DNA of 64,000 nucleotides from Sinohyriopsis cumingii (taxonomy: Eukaryota > Mollusca > Bivalvia > Unionida > Unionidae). Where the stretch lies: positions 93,358,974-93,422,973 of the forward strand of contig CM068838.1 in the NCBI GenBank assembly GCA_028554795.2, in the 5' to 3' direction. The notes under the pieces were generated by a model. That model was not told the DNA's origin. It did no database searches and was given only the letters and a program-made list of their open reading frames with translations. Both the position numbers and the translations under genes were made by a program. Numbering within the stretch: the first letter of the stretch is position 1; every line of letters starts with the position of its first letter. Below are positions 3,780-64,000 of the stretch, piece after piece.

Positions 3780-5030
3780 TACGAGTTTACGATGTCTTTT
3801 GCGGACATACTTCAGGAGACAACCACGAAAGTATTGCCTATGTGGGTGTTAACAGGGTTCAGCAGACTTGTACATCCGCGCATGTATTCGTACGGATACC
3901 TGAATGTAAGGTGAATTACCTGAATGATCGATCGTAAGCATCACTGATTTGGCGTGTAATCTTTAAACGGTCATTGCTAAGGTTGCTAAATTTTGAAATA
4001 ATATATGCAGTAAGTGAATCAGTGACAAGAACAGCTGAATACTGGGATGACGTTCTCGATCATTACCAACCACATGTGTTTTTACGGCCTGTAAATCCGA
4101 CTTGGGAATCTTGATATAATAATGTGATGCTATTATATGTAATTGCTTCACGGTTAATTGAGGCGCTTCTGGAGAAAGTCAGAAAATTAAAAGTATATCA
4201 GATTGTCTCATTCTACTTTTTATTTGTATTTCCCGGTCTCTCCCGAGCTGTTTAGTTGATGTCGTCATTTAGTGCTACAATCATAAATTCGGTGAGTCTT
4301 CGTCAGCACGCAATAATACTTGCGGACAGATGTTTCTTGTAAGGACAGCTGAATAAGCCGCTATTCTCAGTTACCAACATTAAGGCATAATCTAGAATCA
4401 AATTCAACACACAACGCCAGCAAAATCACACTCATTTGTGTGAATACCATGTAGAGTAAGTTATTCAGTTATTGTAATCTGAAATAATAGGTTAATGACA
4501 TGCAAATAAATAGTCCCGAAGTCTGAATAATAAGTTGCAAGTATATCTGCAACATTTTGTTAAATTTGTCTTAAAACAATGTCGACCCGACTAATCTCAA
4601 TAACAGTTACATGGCTAAACCCTTTACTGGTGTGTAATAAACCGCCTCTAATAGTGGTCGGCTTGTTTACCACGCGAACTTTGATATAAATCATGACAGT
4701 TTTTAGTGGATAGTGGACGCGTATGTATTTGTATTTATACTCGCTTCATACTTGCTTATTACGAATGCCAGAACCTGTCACGTCAACGTTGGTTATGTCA
4801 CATTTCAGAAACGTGTATATAATAACCATTTGTTTGGTTACTTATCACCTTTGAAGTTTTCTAATCTTCACAATTAACCTCTGATATTTGTGCCTTATAA
4901 TAACTATGATTGGCGTGCATGAGTGGCCGTATGATGTGAGTACAACGTCATGAATTTGATGTAACACGCTTTGACATTAATTACCAACAAATGTGTATCA
5001 TGATGCATTCAATGTTATATTTTTGTCTTT
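3780..5030. other. No recognised feature
   Basis: I looked here for the upstream exons of the P450 fragment at 5034 and found none. No repeat or RNA gene is recognised. Confidence 0.5.
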
Positions 5031-5033
5031 CAG

Positions 5034-5474
5034 GGGATTACTTAGCAGCTATAGTAATGGATCTTTTTATTGCGGGAACGGAGACTACATCAACCACAGT
5101 CACATGGGCTTCATTCTACTTGACAACAAGACCTGATATACAAAAACGGATCTTTGAAGAAATTAAAGAAAATGTTGGGACTGAGAGACTCCCATCGATG
5201 CAGGATAAGCAGAGCCTCGTTTATACCGAGGCATTCATAATGGAAGTCTTAAGAATGTCCACCATCGTCATTTTAAGCATAGCACATGCTCCAGTGACGG
5301 ACGTTTGCATTCATGGTTACAACATTCCCAAAGGCATGCGAATTTTACCAGACATCCACTCTGTTCTGTCTGATCCTAGAATTTGGGGTGATCCTGAGAA
5401 CTTCAGACCGGAGAGGTTCGTCAGTGAGGAGGGAAGATTGTTGAGACCAGACGAATTCATACCGTTCTTCACTG
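5034..5474 (+). pseudogene. Cytochrome P450 (CYP2 clan) exon, I-helix to PERF region
   Basis: A 441-nt exon with clean splice sites: TTTTGTCTTTCAG before 5034 and GTAAGG after 5474. It codes for 147 residues of a microsomal P450 monooxygenase. Visible landmarks are the oxygen-binding I-helix AGTETT, the K-helix ExxR within EVLR, and FRPERF. By hand count it differs from the inverted copy at 39630-40070 at 28 of 147 residues, about 81% identity, with the same length and splice phases. This exon itself is intact, but the following exon has lost the haem ligand and no upstream exons were found, so the locus is called a pseudogene fragment. The substrate cannot be inferred. Confidence 0.85.
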
Positions 5475-5871
5475 GTAAGGATTGACTGAAAATTTGTATT
5501 TCCAAATTCCGAATCATTTCCTTTCTTCTTCCCGAATGGTGTATTTGAGCATGAAATCACATACATTAAATTTTCCACAAAAATGAACTGTAATGATGTT
5601 AGAGACAAAGTTAATCAGTTCTCCTTTGCAAATCAGACAAACGATCCAACATTAACATTGTTTGATCGAAATGAATGTTATTTTAGGATAAACTTTGTAT
5701 ATGTATTTCAATGTCGGACATTTGTTTAACGCTAGTTAGGTACAAATAAAGGACTAAATAACAACTTGCTAAAAAAATTACTAGCTTCAACAGCAACCTT
5801 GCATGGATTTTAAATTTGTCTACAACACGGTCGGTTCGATTTTGGGAACACAAGAATTTTAATTTTTGTAG

Positions 5872-11464: not shown

Positions 11465-12046
11465 CTACTTTCTCCATTTCTTTATCCATCTCCTAAATTT
11501 TCCCAATATTCCATTCTTTTTGTGTTCCGACTCAGGAATCCAGTCTGGATGACCTATAGCTCTACATTTCTCCTGAACATTCACCCAGTTTTTGTTCATT
11601 CTCTCAAATGCTTCTTTTTTCTTTCTGTTCTCTTGTTCTTTCCTATCTTTTGCCCATGTGTCTTTAACGTTCTTGACTTCTTCTTCCAAGACCCTTTTCA
11701 TAATTTCTTCTGCTTTTTGGACTTGGTCTCGTCCCTTTTTGACAAAAGCCCACCTTGTCAAATTGAAGATATTTTCCAAAAAACACCTGACTTTGATAAC
11801 AATTTCAAGAGACTGCTTCAGTGTTCCGACTCTTACATATTCAGGCGAGACGAAACCTCTCAACTTCTTTATGTCTTCTTCTATCATTCCTTCAATGTTC
11901 TCCCTGGCTATTTGCAGATTGTTTGCAAAGTCCAAGCTGCCTGGGAACTTCCATTCTCTTTCAAGTCTTTCCACTACATACTCCGCATATATCATCCAAT
12001 ACAAACTCTTCTTCAACTGGTTAAACAAGTCAGATACTGCTACCAT
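11465..12046 (-). CDS. Polinton coiled-coil protein with basic C-terminus
   Basis: Intact 193-codon frame starting at ATG 12046, about 50 nt downstream of a TATA box. I do not recognise a named family. The middle and C-terminal half is rich in Lys/Glu with likely coiled-coil character (for example KDRKEQENRKKKEAFE), and the protein ends in a short basic/aromatic tail, KFRRWIKKWRK. It is the gene nearest this element terminus. Copy A has a broken homologue in the same place (53613-54029) ending in a similar basic, Trp-containing stretch, so this is a conserved Polinton gene. A virion-core or nucleic-acid-binding role is possible but inferred only from charge. No histone-like 3' end follows it. 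Confidence 0.7.
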   Translation of the reverse strand: MVAVSDLFNQLKKSLYWMIYAEYVVERLEREWKFPGSLDFANNLQIARENIEGMIEEDIKKLRGFVSPEYVRVGTLKQSLEIVIKVRCFLENIFNLTRWAFVKKGRDQVQKAEEIMKRVLEEEVKNVKDTWAKDRKEQENRKKKEAFERMNKNWVNVQEKCRAIGHPDWIPESEHKKNGILGKFRRWIKKWRK

Positions 12047-12096: not shown

Positions 12097-12136
12097 ATTT
12101 ATATCTAAAGCACGGACGTGAAGGAAAACATCCCCT
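12097..12136 (-). promoter_or_regulatory. Shared Polinton promoter module, coiled-coil gene of B
   Basis: On the minus strand: GGGGATGTTTTCCTTCACG, then TCCGTGCTTT, then AGATATAAAT (TATA box at 12097-12106), about 50 nt before the start codon. The same module lies upstream of three other Polinton genes (14245, 52424, 53529). Confidence 0.75.
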
Positions 12137-12144
12137 ACTTTTGT

Positions 12145-13400
12145 CTTCTCATATTATCTACTATTCACACAAAGGTAATAAGACAAAAAACTAACCATAT
12201 TATATACTATCCACACACGCAGAAATGCCAAATCAAACACCAAAATTTACCATCCACACACGAGAGAAGCTAACAACATAACCACAATCTACTATCCACA
12301 CACGCTGAGAAGCCGAAACATAACCATAATATACTGTCCACACACGGTGAGAAGCCAAATCAAACCCAAAAGTTACCATTCACACACGTCAAGAAGCAGA
12401 AATAAACACAACATTTACTATCCACACACACAGAGATGCCAAATTAAACACAAAGTCTACTATCCACACACGCGGAGAAGTCAAATCAAACCCAAACTAT
12501 ACTATCCGCACATTATCCAAATTAAACCCTAACTATACTATTCACACACACCGAGAAGCAAAAACAAACCCAATTATAATATTAACACAAAAGGAAAGTT
12601 AAACAAGCACACACTCTACTATCCACACAAACCTACGTGAGCACTTACAAACCCCAATAATCTACTATCCACACACGAGAAGCAGAAACATAACCATAAT
12701 ATACTATCCACACACGCTGAGAAGCCAAAACATAATCACAATCTACTATCCACACACGAGAAGAAGGCAAATCAAACCCAAAATTTACCATTCACACACG
12801 TCAAGAAGCAGAAACAAACCCACCATTTACTATCCACACACACAGATATGCCAAATCAAACCATACAATCTACCATCCACACACGCCAAGAAGCAGAAAC
12901 AAATCCACCATTTACTACCTACACACGCAGAGATGCCAAATCAAACCCCCAAATCTACCATCCACACACGGGAGAAGCTAAAAACATAACCACGATCTAC
13001 TATCCACACACGGAGAAGCAGAAACATAACCATAATATACTATCCACACACGTTGAGAAGCCAAAACATAACCACAATATACTATCCACACACGAGAAGA
13101 AGTCAAATCAAACCCAAACTTTACCATTCACACACGCCAAGAAGCAAAAACAAACCCACCATTTACTACCCACACACGCAGATATGCCAAATCAAACCCC
13201 AAAATCTACCATCAACACACGGGAGAAGCTAAAAACATAACCACAATCTACTATCCACACACGGAAAAGCAGAAACATAACCATAATACACTATCCACAC
13301 CCGTGAAGGTTTAAAAAAACATACTCTCTACTATCTACACAAAGGTACTTCAGCACTTACAAAATCCAACAATCTATCATCCACACAAACGTACGTGAGC
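12145..13400. repeat. ACTATCCACACACG minisatellite
   Basis: About 1.25 kb of short units built on CTACTATCCACACACG plus a variable 20-40 nt spacer (GAGAAGCCAAAACATAACC-like and similar). Two or three spacer types recur in higher-order blocks. Open frames through it are repeat artefacts. The same unit occurs inside copy A (53220-53515, opposite strand) and at the right edge (63290-64000). Confidence 0.9.
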
Positions 13401-13555: not shown

Positions 13556-13594
13556 TTTCTTTTCTAGAGTTTTTGGTTAGCCCTGAAAAGGGCT
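13556..13594 (-). terminator. Histone-type mRNA 3' end signal, gene of Polinton B
   Basis: On the minus strand, 26 nt after the stop of the 138-codon gene, lies AGCCCTTTTCAGGGCT (13579-13594): a perfect 6-bp stem with loop TTTC. It is followed by AACCA, a plausible cleavage site, and 9 nt after the stem by CTCTAGAAAAGAAAC, a purine-rich block in the position of the histone downstream element that pairs with U7 snRNA. This fits the metazoan replication-dependent histone 3' end. No histone gene is present. Weaker versions sit in the same position in copies A and C. Confidence 0.8.
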
Positions 13595-13620: not shown

Positions 13621-14037
13621 TTAGTGATGGCACATTCCAGGTCTTGCTCCACAAACACATCTTCTGCTCCAGTAATTATCCCAGTTTACTGTAGCATATG
13701 GGAGTGCAGAGGCTTGAAGATTAGCCTCAGCACCCCAATCTTCTGTCTCTGGGATAATATAAACTTCCCTCTCTTTTCTTCTATGTCGCAGTCTAGGATG
13801 TTGGGGCCTCCTTATTTCTTCTTCCCAGCTTTCAGTTGGGCGAACCACAGGTAATTGTACTACTGATGGAAGAGTCTGTGGCTGTGGTTGACGTTGTGGT
13901 ACTGTTACTGTTGTTTGTGGAGGCGTCCTCGCCTCAGGTTTCACGTCACACTTAGGTTTCATCATAGGGTGAGACCTGATCCCTCTATTCTTTTCCTGCT
14001 CTTCTTTCTTTCTTCTCTGCTCCTCCTCCTCTTCCAT
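13621..14037 (-). CDS. Polinton Gln/Pro-rich protein, N-terminally truncated frame
   Basis: A 138-codon frame from ATG 14037 to TAA. The N-terminus is an acidic/basic run (MEEEEEQRRKKEEQEK), then a Pro/Gln-rich linker, then a C-terminal module with NWDNYWSRRCVCGARPG. I do not recognise a family. Copy A carries a broken homologue (52552-53000) in which the linker and the SRRCVC module can still be aligned. The start seen here may be secondary: an upstream ATG at 14106 is in frame but meets TAA at 14095-14097, where copy A has GAA, so the gene has probably lost its first segment. It is preceded by the shared promoter module and followed by the histone-like 3' end. The function is unknown. A virion component is a guess from its position. 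Confidence 0.6.
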   Translation of the reverse strand: MEEEEEQRRKKEEQEKNRGIRSHPMMKPKCDVKPEARTPPQTTVTVPQRQPQPQTLPSVVQLPVVRPTESWEEEIRRPQHPRLRHRRKEREVYIIPETEDWGAEANLQASALPYATVNWDNYWSRRCVCGARPGMCHH

Positions 14038-14193
14038 TCTTCCTTCTTCTACAATGGCCTCCTCTGCCAGCTCATTCAGGAGGCGCCTGGCATATTACAG
14101 GTGCATCTGGAGTTCCAACAGTTTGCTTATTCTGCTACTCATTCTTCACTGATGTCTCGTCGACAATGGGTAGCCAGACTGGCGAGTGTTTCC

Positions 14194-14243: not shown

Positions 14244-14275
14244 TTGAAGCACGGACGTGAAGGAAAACATCCCCT
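14197..14275 (-). promoter_or_regulatory. Shared Polinton promoter module with TATA box replaced by (TA)n
   Basis: 14245-14275 on the minus strand reads GGGGATGTTTTCCTTCACG then TCCGTGCTTC, identical in most positions to the module at 12097. Where the other three copies have ATATAAA, this one has a pure TA tract of about 45 bp (14197-14243). Confidence 0.7.
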
Positions 14276-14410: not shown

Positions 14411-15175
14411 AGCGGTATTCATAGACTTTGAAAAGGCATTCGACCTAGTGTGAACTAAATGCTTATTAGCCAAATTAAATCACTACGCCATAACAGGCCG
14501 AATGTTCAACTTCATCGAATACTTCCTAACGAACCGCAAGATAATAACTAGAGTCGGTGACACTCACTCTGATTTACAACCCTTAGAAAACGGAACTCCA
14601 CAAGGGAGTGTACTCAGTCCCACTCTGTTCAACCTCATGATCAATCACCTAGATAAGAACTTGGCATCTAACTTAACTGAAATATCGCAATTTGCCGATG
14701 ACAGTGGAATATGGAGAGCAGGAAACCCTTCCAACCACAAAATAATTAAAGACTTACAAGACAGCTTAAACAACATAGGAAAGTGGGCTGGCAAACGGGG
14801 TTTCAAACTAGTACACGAAAAAACTATAGCCGTAATATTTACCCCAAAACGTAAAATAAACAAGCATCTCCCTACACTGACAGTACAAAATCATGAAATT
14901 AAGTACGAAAAATTTGTATGATTCCTGGGAATCTATTACGATGAGCACTTAAGCTGGGGACACCACATCCAAGAATTAATTAAAAGATGCAATAGGGACC
15001 TCAACCTCCTCAAAAACCTTAAAGGGACCGACTGGGGATCCAATCAAGAAACACTGCTTACCCTATACAGGGCACTGATTAGATCCAAACTAGACTACGG
15101 ATGCCAAATATACAACTCAGCACCTAAACAGCATCTTAGAAAAACTAGACAATATACAAAGAAAAACCCTCATTA
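14411..15175 (+). pseudogene. LINE reverse transcriptase fragment
   Basis: Starts within RT motif A, visible as FIDFEKAFDLV with a TGA where Trp is expected (14451-14453). It continues with NGTPQGSVLSPTLFN and the catalytic FADD box at 14691-14702, then FLGIYYD and thumb-like sequence LDYGCQIYNSA. A TGA after KYEKFV (about 14919) and a frame change near 15120-15180 break the frame. Confidence 0.8.
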
Positions 15176-15561
15176 CAATCACTGGCGCGCTACCATCAAC
15201 ATCTCTAGCGAACTCCTAGTACTAACCGAAGAACTCACACGCTGTCTCCGACGACAAGAACTGATTCTAAGATACGCAGCCAGATTAACATCCCACTCAA
15301 ATTCCCACCCCACTAGAATAGCGATAGAAAAATGTGACAAACCATTTAGCAATAAACTCAACACCTAACCCCTACAGAGAATTAGTGAACGAACTTATAG
15401 AGCAACTCTACATTGGAAATCTCAAACATGAAACAAACAAACACTTCGGAACCGAACCTTGGACCAACGAAGAGCCAAAAATCAGTATCTCCCTCACCAA
15501 ATATGGTAATAAAAAGGATCAAGAACATCAACTGCACACCATCGCAACAGAAGAAATTGAC

Positions 15562-16313
15562 ACCAACTACTCAGATTTCCTTAAGATATAAACTGATGGA
15601 TCAAAAACTAAAGGACCAGACAAAACGGCAGCCGCATTTGTCATCCCTGAATTAAACATCAAAGTAGGACATAGACTACCCGACCACTGCTCAATATATA
15701 CGGCGGAATTCTGGGCCATAAAAGAAGCACTTAAATGGGTCGAGCCTAACAACACTCCAATGACAGTAATTATAAGCGACTCACTTAGCGTCATCTCCTC
15801 AATACGTAAAAACAATACCAAATACGGAGAAAATTTCCTGAAACAAACCAACTTAACGCTAAAAAGCTTAAACAACAATAAACAGCACATAGAATTCATA
15901 TGGATTCCATTCCATATAAATATACCAGGCAATGACCTAGCAGATTTAATAGCTAAACAAAAACTTAACGAACCTAGCCACGTCCAATTCGACTACAGTG
16001 TTAGCGAAATATACAGCCTAACAACATCATTAATAACAAAAAAATGGCAGCAAAAAATGGAATGAGAGTACCCAAGGTAGGAAACTTTACAACATCATTA
16101 ATGAAGTCAAAAGAAACAGGAAATCACCCGTACTCCAAAGTAAAGATCAAAAGATAATTAATAGAATATATACAGGTCAAACCAAACCGGCTACCAGTTA
16201 TGACAAGCACATAGGACCATTCCCACACAATCCTAATTGCTATTATTGCCAGGTGCCTGATGACCTACCGCACATATTCAATGTATGCCTTAAATTTAAA
16301 AAGAAAGGGACGT
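15562..16313 (+). pseudogene. LINE RNase H domain and C-terminal Cys/His segment
   Basis: The four acidic/His landmarks of RNase H type 1 are readable: TDGS (15594), TAEFWAIKEAL, IISDSLSVI, and FIWIPFHINIPGNDLADLI. A TAA sits just before TDGS where a Tyr codon is expected, and another frame change lies near 16065. The segment ends with CYYC and HIFNVC. It degraded the RNA strand of the RT hybrid when the element was live. Confidence 0.75.
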
Positions 16314-16329
16314 AGCTAGTATATGATTG

Positions 16330-39157: not shown

Positions 39158-39629
39158 CTAGAAATTGATAAAGTTTTAAAAGGATTATTGATAAAATGCA
39201 TGCTGTTCAACGCAAAAACGTTAATGTAGACAGTGTAGAATCTGATCTGCTTGCTCAGAAAAACGACTAAAGCATTTTGCAGAAAAACGTCCAACACATG
39301 CACATAAAGATACACAACAAAGCAAAGATTCCTGCAATATAAATGTGTCCTTTAAAAACAGAGTTTTCTCAAACTAGTTTTTAAGTTCTTTGTTTTACCT
39401 TGAGTATTATTAAAGATATATAAAGGTTTATACCCAAGATTGATGACGGTCGTTATTTTGACCATTTGGAAGGATCGATTTGTTATCGTTCTTCAGCTAT
39501 GATTAGTACTACAATTAATTTTGATTGCAAAGATATAATATAGGCGTTTTAATATGTAATCAAATGGTTCGATGACATGACACAACATGGGATGATCCAG
39601 ACTTTAAAAAAGCATAAATCAAGCCTTAC

Positions 39630-40070
39630 CAGTGAAGAACGGAGTAAATTCATCTGGTTTTAACAGAGTTCCCTTGTCACTGACGAACCTCTCAGGTCTG
39701 AAGTTCTCAGGGTCACCCCAAATTTTAGGGTCCGACAAAACCGAGTGTATGTCCGGTAAAAGTTTCATTCCTTTGGGAATGTCGTAGTCCCGAAAGGAAA
39801 CATCCGTCACAGGAGCATGAGAAACGCTTATAATAACAATGCTGCTCATTCGCAACACTTCCATTATGAAAGCCTCGGTGTAAACCAGGTTCTGCTTATC
39901 CTGCATTGATGGAAGTCTTTCCATTCCAACGCTTGCTTTGATTTCCTCAAAGATCCGACTTTGGATATCGGGTCTTTTTGCCAGATAGAATGAAGCCCAT
40001 GTGACTGTGATTGCTGTAGTCTCCGTTCCCGCAAGAAATAGATCCATTACTATAGCCGCTAAATATTCCT
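39630..40070 (-). CDS. Cytochrome P450 (CYP2 clan) exon, I-helix to PERF region
   Basis: 441-nt exon bounded by TTTTGTCTTGCAG and GTAAGG. It encodes the oxygen-activating I-helix AGTETT, the ExxR K-helix (EVLR) and FRPERF, with no stops. Length and phases equal those of the + strand copy at 5034-5474. P450s of this clan are endoplasmic-reticulum monooxygenases using NADPH-P450 reductase. The substrate cannot be told from sequence. Next exon downstream: 38961-39157; upstream: 41290-41809. Confidence 0.9.
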
Positions 40071-41289
40071 CTGCAAGACAAAAATAAAAAGAAAGTATAT
40101 CCCCTCTTACAAGTAATTTTTATTTGTCAGAAATTACTCATCTTTTACCAAAGACACGCTGTCCCGAAAGTATTGGAACGGTCTGGTCTTTTGTTATATG
40201 TATTTTCATAAATTTACAACTTATAAAATTCTGATAGTGTATGGAAGAATTTTCACACATAAATCCTTGTCTAAATCAATACGTTGAGAGGTCGGCTTAT
40301 TTATAAAGGAATTATTTCGCTGTTTCAAACTTAAACTGCACCGACAGGTGAGATAGGCTGTCAGATACGTGTATTGGTATGGGCCCCTCTGCGCCCTCCA
40401 CCAATGGTTAAGGTGGCAAGCATTTATGGAACCTTTCAGTCCGAAAGATTTAAAGAATTGTATGTATTCTGTGTCTTACCGAAAAAATCAAAATTAATTT
40501 AGAAAATTTTAACATTATTTCTGTGATTAATGATCTAGCTGCTCTTCAGAATCATATGTTGATTCATAAGGCTCGTACTTCCATGGGTGCTTTTCGATGC
40601 CTTGTTGCTTTACTTAGTGATCCTTACCAGGAGTCAACTTAATTCCTCTGTATGCTATATGCATGCTGCTATAAGGCATTGATTGTAGTTATATCCCTTG
40701 TGAACATGTAAGGACTGACTTAAAAGAAAGGGTCAAATTAGAATAAGATTCGCCTTCATTATTTTATTTGGAGACCTATCTACAAAAGGTAACATTTAAT
40801 CTTGCTAGAGGGGCCCATGATCCAAATGTTGTAGTGACTGATAGCTATTCAGCAAGCTCCCTAATGGTTTCGGCCCTATCTGGTTCCACTACAGAGGTCG
40901 ATCACTTCGTCCGTATGACTGTTATCCCTATCTAAATATGATATTTTGCTATAATAGACAAAAAAGAATATAGGCGTAGGTTCCATACACTTCAACAACT
41001 GGTCAGCGCCTGTTATAACAGGCTGGAGATCTCGACCCATAACGGATCGTAACAAAGTCGACCCATCACAGATTCCGCTCATACAAATTAAATAATGAAA
41101 TCTGCACGTAACATACTTGGCCCATTACCTAGTCAGCTCACAACAAACTCTGCCTTACATAAAGGGTATTGTTCCTACTAAGAAGTACACCTGCTCGTAT
41201 GGGACAAAGGTTATTAGTTTATTCTATTATTTTCCCTTTCTTAATATTGACAATAACAGTTTTAAATTGACGATTAAATATATTCTTAC

Positions 41290-41809
41290 TTGTAAAAATA
41301 TTATTTTTTCCGTCGCTCTGTTTCTTCATTTCTGATATAAAAGCATCGATAAAATCATCGATATTTCCTTCATCGAATTTGTTCATGTGTTCCTCAATGA
41401 GTTCATTCACAAAATCTTTGACCACTTGTATTTTTCGACTTATGTTTTTGATCCCCAAAAAATCGCCTGGGACGAATCTTAATACAGGCATGAACATAAC
41501 TGGAGATCCAACTGAGACGTAATGTAGAAAAGGAATTGAATCCATCCATAAGTGTTTTAAACCTAGGATCATCGTGGCTGAAATGGCCACCGAAAACGAG
41601 ATGCGAAATCACATTTCCGACACTTGTCTGAATAGGGGCCATCATTTGGAACGGCGTTTCGTTAAATCCTTCTATTTCAGAGAGAAAGAGCTTCACTTCC
41701 GTTTGAATTTTATCTTCAAGTTTGGACTTTCCAAGTCCGTAATTTCTAAGTGTCACTAAAATGAATTTCCTTTGGTTCTTCCATAGGTCTCCAGAAACTG
41801 ATGTGATAC
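41290..41809 (-). pseudogene. Cytochrome P450 upstream exon with internal frameshift
   Basis: 520-nt exon bounded by acceptor TTTTTTACAG and donor GTAAG. The first part reads GDLWKNQRKFIL and LRNYGLGKSKLE, then SVGNVISHLVFGGHF, all typical CYP2-clan helix C to F sequence. Near 41525-41550 the frame changes: the first frame runs to about FKTLMDGFNS, the second continues from about FLHYVSVGSPVMF to the donor. The second frame is the one in phase with exon 39630-40070. A one-base indel explains this, either a real mutation or an assembly error. The N-terminal anchor exon was not found upstream within the window. Confidence 0.8.
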
Positions 41810-41814
41810 CTGTA

Positions 41815-42835
41815 AAAAATAATTATGCAATAACTAATGTTTGAGCTTTTCTTTGATAAACAAATTATATATGCTTGAACAGACGACAACCATATCGGAC
41901 AAAGCGAAATATTCCGTCTCCTCTGGTTTCCTCCCGTTGGTTTAAAATAAACAAACATGTTGTTTTACTGCTTACATTAACTGAAAATTATCTGAATATT
42001 TTGTTAATTTTATCAAAGCTGGATAGTAATCTCAATATATTGAAGAATTACCACAATTACCCCAAATAACTCATATTAAAAAGAGTTAAATGCTATTTAT
42101 AGGATATTCATAAGAAGCCATTAGATATGAATGAAATGTTTAAACAAATAAAGAAGCAAATAAAGAAAGACAGAACATTAACAAATTCTGGTTAACTTAA
42201 GTACTTTGGATGTGAAATATTTGTTTCAACACGAAGTATCCAGGCTTCATATTTTTTTTGGTACTTTATTGCTTTCCTAAGGACGTAAGAAAGTATTCTC
42301 GCCTTTATTTACTTATAACTTTACTTCTAAATTTACATTTACCGCCTATATTCGCTTATAGATCGGGCCTAACCTCACACTTCTCAGACCCAGACCTGCC
42401 GTCAAATATTGCGCCAACAGAGAGGGATCTGTGCACTTTTTAGAAGTGCAAGATGAAGAAGCAACATAGATCCTTATATACCGGTGCGTTATGTGATGGC
42501 AGTTCGGGACCTGGGCTATTTGCAGTTTGTCCGATTTATATGCGAGCACATACGGTAATATATGCTGAATACTTTTCAGTATCTCTTCGTACAGAAATGA
42601 CACAATAACGTGAAAGGTCAGCATAAACATTGGGATTTATTATTCGCTTCATGATATTTCTGGAAAATGTAATACAAAAGTCACATCAATATTTTAAACA
42701 TGTATATAATATATCTTAATTAATTACTGCTGTTTCATACAAGATGTCATGTGATGTGATTTTGATTTTTAACGAAACTTTAACAATTTTTCAGTCATAT
42801 CGCTAAGATGTCTGCAGTGTGGCAGTTTATAGTGA
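41815..42835. other. No recognised feature
   Basis: Searched for the P450 N-terminal exon (membrane anchor plus proline-rich hinge) on the minus strand without success. Confidence 0.4.
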
Positions 42836-42837
42836 TG

Positions 42838-43067
42838 TCTAGCACTGGGGCATCATGCCGCAGACATGTAGCATGATGTCCCACCCAGTCACATTATCCT
42901 GACACCAGGCCGACCAGTCCTAACACTAACCTCTTAATGCTGAACGCCAAGCGAGGCAGCTGTTAGTATCATTTTTTAAGTATCTGGTTTGACTCGGCCG
43001 GGGATCGAACCCACGACCTCCCGCATCCGAGGCGGACGCTCTAACCACTAGGCCACCGGAGCGGTCT
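42838..43067 (-). mobile_element. SINE2, tRNA-derived head with conserved tail
   Basis: On the minus strand the head reads GGTGGCCTAGTGGTTAGAGC (A box) and GTGGGTTCGATCCCCGG (B box). A linker follows, then the tail also found at 26432-26560, containing TGACTGGGTGGGACATCATG. The head folds like a tRNA, but the fused tail makes it a SINE and not a tRNA gene. Confidence 0.85.
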
Positions 43068-50254: not shown

Positions 50255-50494
50255 TGCAACTTTGAAAGTTGTTTTCGAACGTTCCAAAGAAAATGACCTA
50301 ACTATCTGGGAGGACCTACCTCCTAAGAATTAGCCAGAGCCGGATTTCTCTACTTGGGCAAAGAAGATCAATTCCAGTGCTTCAGTAGCGGTGTGTCACA
50401 TCACGAGCGGGGACAGAAATATTCGGCCTACCTGGAACATGCTCAATGGTCTCCGGATTGTCACTATCTACTTTTAGTGCAACAACCTCAGTAA
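50255..50494 (+). pseudogene. BIR domain (IAP-type) in Polinton A
   Basis: One frame, interrupted by TGA and TAA in its first third, reads as a baculoviral-IAP-repeat domain. It has an N-terminal FRTFQ block, ELARAGFLYLGKEDQFQCF, and a C-terminal LEHAQWSPDCHYL. The zinc ligands Cys, His and the last Cys (H-x6-C) are in place. The second Cys of the CxxC pair is Ser (CFSS), so zinc binding would be weakened. BIR proteins block caspase-dependent cell death in animals and several DNA viruses carry them, so capture from a host IAP gene is plausible. The stops show that this copy is dead. Confidence 0.8.
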
Positions 50495-52423: not shown

Positions 52424-52463
52424 GGGGATGTTTCCGTCACGTCCGCGCTTCACAGATATAAAG
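52424..52463 (+). promoter_or_regulatory. Shared Polinton promoter module, Gln/Pro-rich gene of A
   Basis: GGGGATGTTTCCGTCACGTC, CGCGCTTC, then CAGATATAAAG (TATA box). Aligns with 12097-12136 and 14245-14275; the sequence after it (CATTCGTCATTCTGGCTAC) also matches copy B. Confidence 0.75.
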
Positions 52464-53027: not shown

Positions 53028-53067
53028 AACCTTTATCAGGGATACACAAATACTCTAGAAAAGAGAC
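53028..53067 (+). terminator. Decayed histone-type 3' end signal, Gln/Pro-rich gene of A
   Basis: AACCTTTATCAGGGAT (53028-53043) matches 12 of 16 positions of the intact signal in copy B. Then comes ACACA, and 9 nt after the stem CTCTAGAAAAGAGAC, nearly identical to copy B. Distance from the aligned stop is 27 nt, against 26 nt in copy B. Confidence 0.65.
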
Positions 53068-53219
53068 TATTAAAGGTGCCAATTTGTGTGCATGTGGAGA
53101 AGTGTGACTATAAACAGTCACTCTTTTCCTGGTTTGATTATGTGGGTGTGGGTGTCTGTGTGTGTGTGTGTGTGTTTGTTTTGTATGCGTTCGCGTACGT
53201 TTGTATGGAAAGTAGATAA

Positions 53220-53515
53220 TGTGGTTTTTACCATCTTCCCTTGTGTGGATAGCATATTTTGGGGTTTGTGGATAGTATATAATTTGTCTTCTTCATGTGT
53301 GTGGATAGTATTTGTGTGATTTTTTTCTTTCTTTTTTTCCTCGTGTGTGGATAGTAGGTTTTAGGGTTTGTGGATAGCTAATGCTAGTTTTTCTTCTTAG
53401 CATGTGTGGATAGTATATTTGAAATTGTTTTTTCGTCTTCTTCTCGTGTGTGGATAATAGATTTTGTGTTTGTATGGATTCCCGTACGGTTGCGTGGATA
53501 GTAGATACTATGCGA
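53220..53515. repeat. ACTATCCACAC minisatellite (opposite strand) in Polinton A
   Basis: About eight units built on GTGTGTGGATAGTA with variable spacers, preceded by a (TG)n run at about 53155-53173. Same position, between the Gln/Pro-rich and coiled-coil genes, as 12145-13400 in copy B. Confidence 0.85.
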
Positions 53516-53528
53516 AGTGAGTGTAAGT

Positions 53529-53565
53529 GATGTTTTAGTTCACGTCTGTGCTAGACATAAATAAA
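53529..53565 (+). promoter_or_regulatory. Shared Polinton promoter module, coiled-coil gene of A
   Basis: GATGTTTTAGTTCACGTC, TGTGCTAG, ACATAAATAAAA; the TATA-like box is about 50 nt before ATG 53613, the same distance as in copy B. Confidence 0.65.
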
Positions 53566-53612
53566 ATCAAGCGTTCGTAATTCCCTCCAATCAACATTGA
53601 ATACTCAACAAA

Positions 53613-61650: not shown

Positions 61651-61654
61651 ATAC

Positions 61655-61694
61655 TATCTCTTTTCGAGAGACATGGGTGGCCCTGCAAAGGGCC
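61655..61694 (-). terminator. Histone-type 3' end signal, gene X of Polinton C
   Basis: On the minus strand GGCCCTTTGCAGGGCC (61679-61694): perfect 6-bp stem with loop TTGC (canonical would be TTTC). ACCCA follows, the classic histone cleavage context, and 8 nt after the stem comes CTCTCGAAAAGAGAT. It lies 32 nt after the gene X stop. Confidence 0.7.
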
Positions 61695-61726: not shown

Positions 61727-62280
61727 TTAGGAAGCAATCAACTTTAACCGCCTTAAGCCTTTGCCGCGGCCAAGGCCTACTTCTGGACTGCGTAGTGTCG
61801 ATGATGATGATGATGATGATTTTTTGGTAGAAATTACTAAGGGTTTTATGGTTGGTGTTGTCACAGGGTTGGGTTGTTTAGCTCTGGAAGGTCTTTTTCC
61901 CTTCGGTCGTAATAAAGAAGTCTGATAGATTTGTTTCAGACTTCTTAACTCCGCTAAAATTGTCTAACAGTACCGTCACGGTTTGACTTTCACCGTCTTG
62001 TTTCTTGGCTGCTTCTTGTTGTTTTCTTTTTTTTTCTTACCTCTTCTTCTTGCTGTTGATGTAGGAGAAAAGCCTGTTCCTCTTCCTTTTGCTTCTGTTT
62101 AAAATTCTCCACATGTGTTAAAGAATGAGAAGGTGGCAAAGGTACTGGTTCCGGAACAAATTCTTGCGAAAGAAAATCCACAAAATCCCAGTTTACCTCT
62201 TCTGGAAGTAACTCCGGGTTCCCTTGGGTAGTCTCCACGGTCGGTGCACCCCAATTCATGGTCTTCTGAGTTTTCGCCAT
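61727..62280 (-). pseudogene. Polinton gene X (Lys/Glu-rich, basic C-terminus), copy C
   Basis: Start ATG 62278-62280, chosen because it aligns with the start in copy A (45719). The first frame runs to 61990: KTMNWGAPTVETTQG, an acidic stretch, then a Gln/Lys/Glu-rich helix KQKQKEEEQAFLL. A SQTVTVLLD block matching copy A follows in another frame, then a basic stretch with a Ser run ending GRGKGLRRLKLIAS and TAA at 61727-61729 in a third. At least two frame changes break it. I do not know the family. The acidic-to-basic layout suggests a nucleic-acid-binding or virion-core role, but this is inference. A histone-like 3' end follows and Polinton D is inserted just upstream. Confidence 0.6.
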
Positions 62281-63110: not shown

Positions 63111-63237
63111 TGAACACTAGGGGATAAATGGCAACAGTGTTGCAAGTGGCTGACCTGAATACGCGCTACTGTAGGTAGGTAGGTAAAGTGTATCTGATAG
63201 GGATAAAGTGAGCTTTATAGGGACAAACAGAGACCAA

Positions 63238-63384
63238 TACACACACACACAACATACGCGCGCAGACTCACACACACACACACACATAAAGAGGGAAGAG
63301 GAAAAAACAAACCCCAAAATATACTATCCACACTCGGGAGGAAGAAAAAAAAACCAAATATACGATCTACACAACGTACGCGAA

Positions 63385-63431
<47 letters not shown>

Positions 63432-64000
63432 CATACGCGCGCATACAAACACACACGCACACACACACCCACACACACACACAGAAGGAAGAGGAAAAAA
63501 CAAACCCCAAATATACTATCCACACTCGGGAGGAAGAAAAAAAAACAACCAAATATACGATCTACACAACGTACGCGAACAAACACACACACATACACAC
63601 ACAACATACGCGCGCAGACTCACACACACACACACACACAGAGGGAAGAGGAAAAAAACAAACCCCAAATATACTATCCACACTCGGGAGGAAAAAAAAA
63701 AACAACCAAATATACGATCTACACAACGTACGCGAACACACACACATACACACACACACACACACCCACAGAGGGAAGAGGAAAAAACAAACCCCAAATA
63801 TACTATCAACACAGAAGGGAGATAATACAAACCCCAAATAAACTATCCACACAAACGTACGCGAACGCATACAAACCCCAAATAAACTATCCACACAAAC
63901 GTATGCGAACGCATACAAACCCCAAATATACTATCCACACAACGTCGCTAACGCATACAAACCGCAAATATACTATTCACACTCGGGAGGAAGAAGAAAA
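63238..64000. repeat. Higher-order minisatellite, CA runs plus ACTATCCACAC
   Basis: About four copies of a block of roughly 130-240 bp: CA run, GAGGGAAGAGGAAAAAACAA, ACCCCAAATATACTATCCAC, TCGGGAGGAAG, then CGATCTACACAACGTACGCG. Simpler ACTATCCACAC units follow to the edge. All open frames here are repeat artefacts. Confidence 0.9.

Follow-up and report, generated by a model that had tools for sequence, protein, structure and literature searches.

Several genes in a large family of Polinton/adintovirus-like elements carry, a short distance past their ends, a stem-loop and a purine block with the form of a histone mRNA 3′ end. Based on comparison with the histone genes of the same host genome, we regard this pair of signals with considerable confidence as a histone-type pre-mRNA 3′ processing signal of the family. 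The earlier note had suggested a histone-type mRNA 3′ end on a single Polinton gene. This suggestion is now supported by a model built from host histone ends, by several different element genes, and by many copies of them. Two more stem-loops of the window (61694-61679, minus strand, and 53028-53043, plus strand) and the promoter box at 14271-14249 (minus strand) had escaped the earlier note.

Stem-loops and purine blocks in the window

The window (i.e., the whole stretch of 64,000 nt analyzed here) contains fragments of the element with the following genes and 3′ signals.

11465..12046, minus strand: gene G copy with a 193-aa open reading frame; homologs P0001 and P0002 are about 50% identical
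13558..13567, minus strand: purine block CTAGAAAAGA of the histone downstream element type; host H3, H4, and H2B have the identical ten letters
13579..13594, minus strand: histone-type 3′ stem-loop AGCCCT TTTC AGGGCT, 26 nt past the gene E stop
13621..14142, minus strand: gene E copy (Gln/Pro-rich), interrupted by a single in-frame stop close to its N terminus; 47% identity to homolog P0003
46221..47650, plus strand: degenerate PolB region of a second element fragment, includes MAHNLSGYDGQF; PF03175 was found in a relative
53028..53043, plus strand: third, decayed stem-loop AACCTTTATCAGGGAT, behind a diverged second gene E copy
53054..53066, plus strand: purine block TCTAGAAAAGAGA, intact behind the decayed stem-loop
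61654..61668, minus strand: purine block CTCGAAAAGAGATAG behind the second stem-loop
61679..61694, minus strand: second histone-type stem-loop GGCCCT TTGC AGGGCC, flanked by CAAA (5′) and ACCCA (3′); distance to the NWGAP end about 36 nt
61731..62280, minus strand: NWGAP copy, in pieces (frame broken)

The stop codon of gene E (TAA at 13623-13621, minus strand) is followed 26 nt on by AGCCCTTTTCAGGGCT at 13594-13579, a perfect 6-bp stem with the loop TTTC, then by AACCA and by CTAGAAAAGA (13567-13558, minus strand), which is the layout that the earlier note had described at 13594-13556. Two hallmarks of a histone-type 3′ end are present, namely a 6-bp stem with a 4-nt U-rich loop and its conserved letters, and a purine-rich downstream element at about 10–15 nt. 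The gene E copy itself is broken by its in-frame stop (14097-14095) and is thus a decayed copy. The Rfam Histone3 model aligned with the gene E stem-loop over its full length at 21.6 bits, below the gathering score of 34 (against 4227 families, the E-value is 0.0012 when 401 nt are searched and 0.2 when 64 kb are). The second stem-loop also stayed below that score (26.8 bits; 61699-61654, minus strand), and its flanks are textbook (CAAAGGCCC...GGGCCACCCA). The gene G copy has neither a stem-loop nor a purine block downstream (11465-11380, minus strand).

The histone genes of the host served as the yardstick. The single host genome in this comparison (G000; 2.9 Gb in 1138 contigs) has them in repeats of about 8.3 kb. 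In one such unit (L064), H3, H4, H2B, and H2A all carry GGCCCTTTT(T/C/A)AGGGCC 27–35 nt past the stop, and GAAAAGA (GAAAAGG in H2A) starts 13–14 nt behind the stem. The H1 3′ end is a weaker match (26.4 bits). Under Rfam Histone3, host H3 and H4 scored 35.9 and 37.7 bits, respectively, compared with up to 45.6 bits for the best element copies.

A model termed R1 was built from the H3, H4, H2B, and H2A ends only and run against 273,764 nt, comprising the window, 20 element loci, and five unrelated viral contigs. At E ≤ 0.1, R1 gave 60 matches, of which 57 are in the 20 element loci and three in the window, with none in the five unrelated viral contigs. The gene E stem-loop of the window scored 29.2 bits (E = 0.0018 for 273,764 nt), the second stem-loop did better (37.0 bits), and the decayed third one scored 29.4. 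A descriptor that combines the stem-loop with GAAAAGA occurs twice in the window and never in 200 shuffled windows, with its stem-loop part alone averaging 0.155 per shuffle. On these descriptor counts and the R1 matches, a chance hairpin is rejected. In isolation, the 49-nt stretch folds only moderately better than shuffled versions of it (z = −1.74; 11 of 200 as good).

Other features of the window include a BIR (inhibitor of apoptosis) domain at 50327-50491 (plus strand; PF00653, E = 2.4e-9) inside the second element fragment, and the element may carry an IAP-like gene. A minisatellite with units of about 42 nt (CTATCCACACACG...) lies at 12150-13400 between element genes E and G, and related repeats occur in other fragments at 53200-53600 and 63200-64000. 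A non-LTR retrotransposon remnant with broken frames is located at 14454-16315 (plus strand; RVT_1 7e-14, RNase H 5.9e-12), and a tRNA match (35.5 bits) at 42990-43062 (minus strand). The segments 4940-5482 (plus strand), 39622-40119, and 41222-41822 (both minus strand) are what we take to be cytochrome P450-like exons in two places on opposite strands.

Distribution of the signal in the element family

A whole-genome search with Rfam Histone3 gave at least 75 matches (75 scored of 589,472 first-look candidates), and all 75 exceed the 34-bit cut-off. Host histone genes were dismissed as their source because none of the 75 lie in the listed histone repeats (150 of 662 repeat candidates scored). 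The 20 top-scoring matches among the 75 were inspected with 8 kb of surrounding sequence, and all 20 proved to be inside copies of one element family. Taken over these 20 loci, the element genes comprise a PolB fragment, an adenain-like protease, a zinc-knuckle gene, an MCP-like gene, NWGAP, K, D, E, F, and G, and the full set is found in no single locus. The family B DNA polymerase is recognized by PF03175 (6.3e-13; L054:6502-7035). The protease has 236 homologs, with PF00770 in 10 of the 120 listed, and the protease query itself has no Pfam match and weak PDB matches to S273R (E = 0.0039) and adenain (E = 0.33). The MCP-like gene, which we presume to resemble a double jelly-roll major capsid protein, has no Pfam match and no meaningful PDB match. 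This gene content fits Polintons/adintoviruses. As in Polintons/Mavericks and adintoviruses, the PolB fragment (PF03175) and the adenain-like protease are found in one set of loci; unlike in those groups, there is a row of lysine/glutamate-rich small proteins, and one window fragment has the BIR domain.

Searches of IMG/VR with the PolB piece, gene G, the alignment of gene G relatives, and the protease alignment found no relatives. A strict stem-loop pattern search returned no places, and the five places given by a looser pattern were set aside since they look like chance. The closest pair of copies found is 97.7% identical over 4463 nt. Four NWGAP copies are placed on one strand in steps of about 11.85 kb at G000:C7:136341781-136377886, perhaps a head-to-tail array of the element.

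For 44 of the 60 R1 matches, the preceding gene is NWGAP (13), E (10), F (10), D (6), or G (5). The distance from gene end to stem-loop is 11–46 nt in 43 of these 44, with some ends extrapolated from partial matches, and in the remaining case the gene end could not be placed. Another 13 matches lie 24–25 nt past the end of gene K. The last three are the decayed gene E copy of the window and two unplaced matches, one of which is the weakest of all.

These loci were found by their stem-loops, and the stem-loop that brought in each locus was therefore left out of a second count to avoid circularity. Among such non-anchor copies, the stem-loop is present in E (12/12), NWGAP (11/11), F (10/11), K (4/4), and D (4/8), and absent from the single G copy (0/1). 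The comparison genes PRO (the protease; 0/7), MEDC (0/7), and MCP-like (0/7) lack it, and the zinc-knuckle gene has it once (1/14), in a copy that is a 36% cross-match. Random positions have a stem-loop in 482 of 20,000 cases. The difference between the six families (41/47) and the others (1/35) has a Fisher value of 1e-15, with the reservation that the copies share descent and are not independent. PolB_N (0/11) was left out of this test; its reference is not a true gene end, such that its count is uninformative on PolB.

The polyadenylation signals AATAAA/ATTAAA are found in all seven PRO copies, 95–114 nt past the end. Within 250 nt, these signals are present in 8 of 17 zinc-knuckle copies and behind some of the stem-loop genes (NWGAP 6/13, K 4/13, D 5/16, F 3/11, E 2/12, and G 2/8). 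It is likely that the element has two kinds of 3′ end, although the split is not clean given the signals behind some stem-loop genes and their presence in only 8 of 17 zinc-knuckle copies.

The association is also seen when the protein is taken as the starting point. A search with the NWGAP protein gave at least 150 copies (150 scored of 33,703 candidates) that are 93–100% identical, and 140 of them have no internal stop. For the first 20 plus-strand places of this list, with just 90 nt past the match taken, 19 have both an R1 match and the exact 16-nt stem-loop, and GAAAAGA is 13 nt behind the stem in 16 of the 19. These NWGAP copies are closely related, and the 19 are thus not independent events. 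The one miss (L090) has lost the loop and kept the purine block. The enrichment after stop codons that the earlier note had proposed to look for is therefore found for several element genes and in many copies, with the host histone genes as yardstick. The lack of any such enrichment in Polintons, which would have spoken against the idea, is rejected for the element family in this one genome.

Conservation was assessed with 10–13 copies per gene. Identity among copies is 0.94–0.99 over the 16 letters of the stem-loop, compared with 0.67–0.87 for the spacer between stop and loop. The purine block has 0.78–0.98, the next 20 nt have 0.80–0.89, and the following 40 nt have 0.54–0.93. For gene E, the far-downstream 40 nt (0.93) are as conserved as the loop. 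For gene K, the purine block (0.78) is below the spacer (0.87), and 9 of the 13 K copies are anchors, such that conservation there is biased toward the loop.

Among 53 distinct rows of element and host sequences, 96.5% of the pair cells are paired. The first stem pair is G-C in 31 rows and A-U in 17, and the A-U form is mostly found with genes E and F. Covariation is 0.163 versus 0.098, and none of 500 shuffles is as high, in an alignment that was fitted to the structure. Two of the five covariation measures are unremarkable (pair types 489/500; both-side changes 26/500). The descriptor of stem-loop plus purine block has 39 occurrences in the 20 loci, up to 20 of which are anchors by construction, and none in 200 shuffles. 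The purine block of NWGAP, D, G, and K is nearly palindromic and can form its own hairpin (e.g., window 61654-61668, minus strand, and L063:3987-4030).

Promoter box and U7 candidates

Some of the genes with the stem-loop also share a promoter element with host histone genes. Upstream of host H2B is a box of 23 nt, GATGTTTTCCATCACGTCCGCGC, which is present with one mismatch at host H1 and inverted with four mismatches at host H2A. The promoters of host H3 and H4 have no box at up to six mismatches. For the motif ACGTCCGC, a HINFP-like factor is conceivable. Four box sites were identified in the window.

12110..12132, minus strand: promoter box upstream of gene G, 2 mismatches to the host H2B 23-mer
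14249..14271, minus strand: promoter box upstream of gene E, 2 mismatches to the host H2B 23-mer
52427..52448, plus strand: diverged promoter box of 22 nt (host: 23 nt) ahead of the second gene E copy
53529..53551, plus strand: diverged promoter box upstream of a gene D copy, 5 mismatches

The window and the 20 element loci (224,020 nt) contain 41 box sites at four or fewer mismatches (four exact and 18 with one mismatch), whereas 100 shuffled boxes gave none in the same sequences. The box is upstream of 28 of 34 copies of four genes, namely D (7/10), E (10/11), F (7/9), and G (4/4). It is absent upstream of all 64 copies of six other references, namely NWGAP (0/14), K (0/14), zinc knuckle (0/11), PolB_N (0/12), PRO (0/6), and MEDC (0/7).

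Genome-wide, there are 6,101 exact matches to the 23-mer and none to the reversed control. The 100 occurrences that were listed are all on contig C1 and outside the listed histone repeats. This abundance, together with the missing box at host H3 and H4, may be explained by a move of the box from the element into the histone repeat, where it was retained as part of histone promoters. We consider such a move unlikely, though worth keeping in mind, because the presence of the box at H2B and H1 and its inverted form at H2A fit an old histone element.

The processing that we propose would also require U7 RNA. A genome scan with the Rfam U7 model found nothing in the host, and control genomes gave no match either. 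A pattern of the purine-block complement followed by an Sm-like site was found at 19 places, compared with 17 for the reversed pattern, a count that proves nothing. Among the 12 of these 19 places that were fetched, L070, L071, and L072 have in common TCTTTTCAAGTTTCTCTAG, followed by the hairpin GGCAG-ATAAA-(C/T)TGCC, and the Sm-like site AAGTTTCTCTAG. Based on this common Sm-like site and hairpin, the three loci are probable U7 genes. The Rfam U7 model scored two of them below its threshold (17.9 and 15.1 bits). The other nine places were dropped, with one on C13 that looks antisense to the end of element gene E, and with those on C4, C5 (two), C6, C7, C12, C17 (39 Mb), and C19 having no shared hairpin.

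The 5′ ends of the three U7-like loci are predicted to pair with the purine block of NWGAP, D, G, and K at −11.0, −11.2, and −13.9 kcal/mol, and with that of E and F at −9.0, −8.2, and −7.9 kcal/mol. The values for the host genes are −7.3, −10.5, and −10.9 (H3), −8.4, −7.3, and −8.4 (H4), −14.0, −7.5, and −10.9 (H2B), and −6.3, −8.7, and −6.6 kcal/mol (H2A). These energies indicate compatibility only, since the search pattern contains part of the complement and since L065, which is not U7, pairs equally well or better.

Interpretation and relation to known systems

The element signals resemble the 3′ ends of replication-dependent histone mRNAs (RF00032; SLBP and U7 snRNP) in the 6-bp stem, the 4-nt U-rich loop, the A-rich 5′ flank, the purine block at equal spacing, and the position just past the stop. 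A further likeness to replication-dependent histone genes is the related promoter box at host H2B, H1, and, inverted, H2A. However, the stem-loop genes of the element are small mobile-element genes and not histones; no Pfam Histone match was obtained for the scanned E, G, F, D, and NWGAP proteins.

By analogy with histone mRNAs, host SLBP would bind the loop, U7 snRNP would pair with the purine block, and cleavage a few nucleotides behind the stem would leave mRNAs without poly(A). Together, the 3′ signal and the promoter box would limit the small proteins to S-phase cells, in which nucleotides and replication factors are provided by the host. The polyadenylated genes of the element would be expressed on a different schedule. 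PRO, MEDC, and the zinc-knuckle gene have neither stem-loop (apart from the one zinc-knuckle copy) nor box, and the MCP-like gene has no stem-loop. Most likely, D, E, F, and G each form a complete cassette in the manner of a histone gene, NWGAP and K have the same 3′ end with another (divergent) promoter, and the protease row is polyadenylated. We lean toward the further proposal of a split expression program, in which histone-cassette genes (box, SLBP stem-loop, and U7 block) would be expressed in S phase only, with histone-like mRNA ends, and the virion genes would be polyadenylated.

The stem-loop could alternatively bind SLBP without cleavage and have a role in translation, export, or mRNA stability, or serve as a decoy for SLBP, with poly(A) added further downstream. 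The AATAAA/ATTAAA signals within 250 nt behind some copies are compatible with this explanation, as is the ability of the purine block to form a hairpin in one class. We nevertheless consider it improbable: the purine block has the letters and spacing of the host and can pair with the U7-like genes, and most E and F copies have no AATAAA/ATTAAA in that range.

There is very little room for the view that the signals are functionless passengers, shared through descent alone. The copies are indeed related, and many have decayed, including those in the window. However, six different genes of one element have the signal on the coding strand past the stop, the stem-loop is better conserved than the adjoining spacer, a double compensating change separates the two stem variants, and the protease gene, which has no stem-loop, has a polyadenylation signal instead. 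As an inverted repeat within a mobile element, the stem-loop might also act at the DNA level or in replication, or might be a simple terminator hairpin. This is the least credible of the explanations considered, because the stem-loop is strand-specific, positioned past stops, missing behind the protease, matched to histone mRNAs in its loop and flank letters, and recovered by a model of host histone ends.

Animal viruses that touch host histone biology have precedents. Bracoviruses carry an H4 histone gene. The Histoid gene of adomaviruses is a viral histone or histone-like gene (PMC11071296). In both of these systems the protein is a histone or histone-like, whereas in the element the expression signals are histone-like and the proteins are not.

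The nearest precedent found is a count in PMC12220804, which gives n = 6 histone 3′UTR stem-loops among polinton-like virus and virophage genomes, without comment in that section, and none of these among its 1107 cryptophyte PLVs. The likeness is in the Rfam-type histone stem-loops in related virus genomes. In the section concerned, however, the count stands without hosts, gene context, purine block, promoter, or function, whereas the element family, found in an animal, has the signal regularly on several of its genes and in a form that matches the host histone genes. The six stem-loops hint that histone-type ends may extend beyond one family. The main text of an adintovirus survey (PMC11071296) has no occurrence of "stem-loop", "SLBP", or "polyadenylation", and the accessible text of PMC2646287 has nothing relevant to histone-type ends. 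Within the literature covered, which mostly excluded subscription journals, we found no report that Polinton or adintovirus genes have ends of the histone type. The statement in the earlier note that no such report was known needs to be qualified by the six stem-loops counted in polinton-like viruses and virophages (PMC12220804).

Histone mRNAs are held to be the sole animal protein-coding mRNAs with a stem-loop end instead of poly(A) (PMC6303110). If the element genes are processed as proposed, non-histone genes with histone signals would break this histone-only rule, and they would offer a natural set of RNAs on which recognition by SLBP and U7 can be studied. Transcripts of this kind would escape RNA-seq with poly(A) selection, such that Polinton expression may have been underestimated. 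The combined evidence from sequence suggests that the element times its stem-loop and box genes to host DNA replication. If the split program holds, the element would sense the host cell cycle without a regulator of its own, which hints at how an integrating DNA virus could follow the cell cycle of its host.
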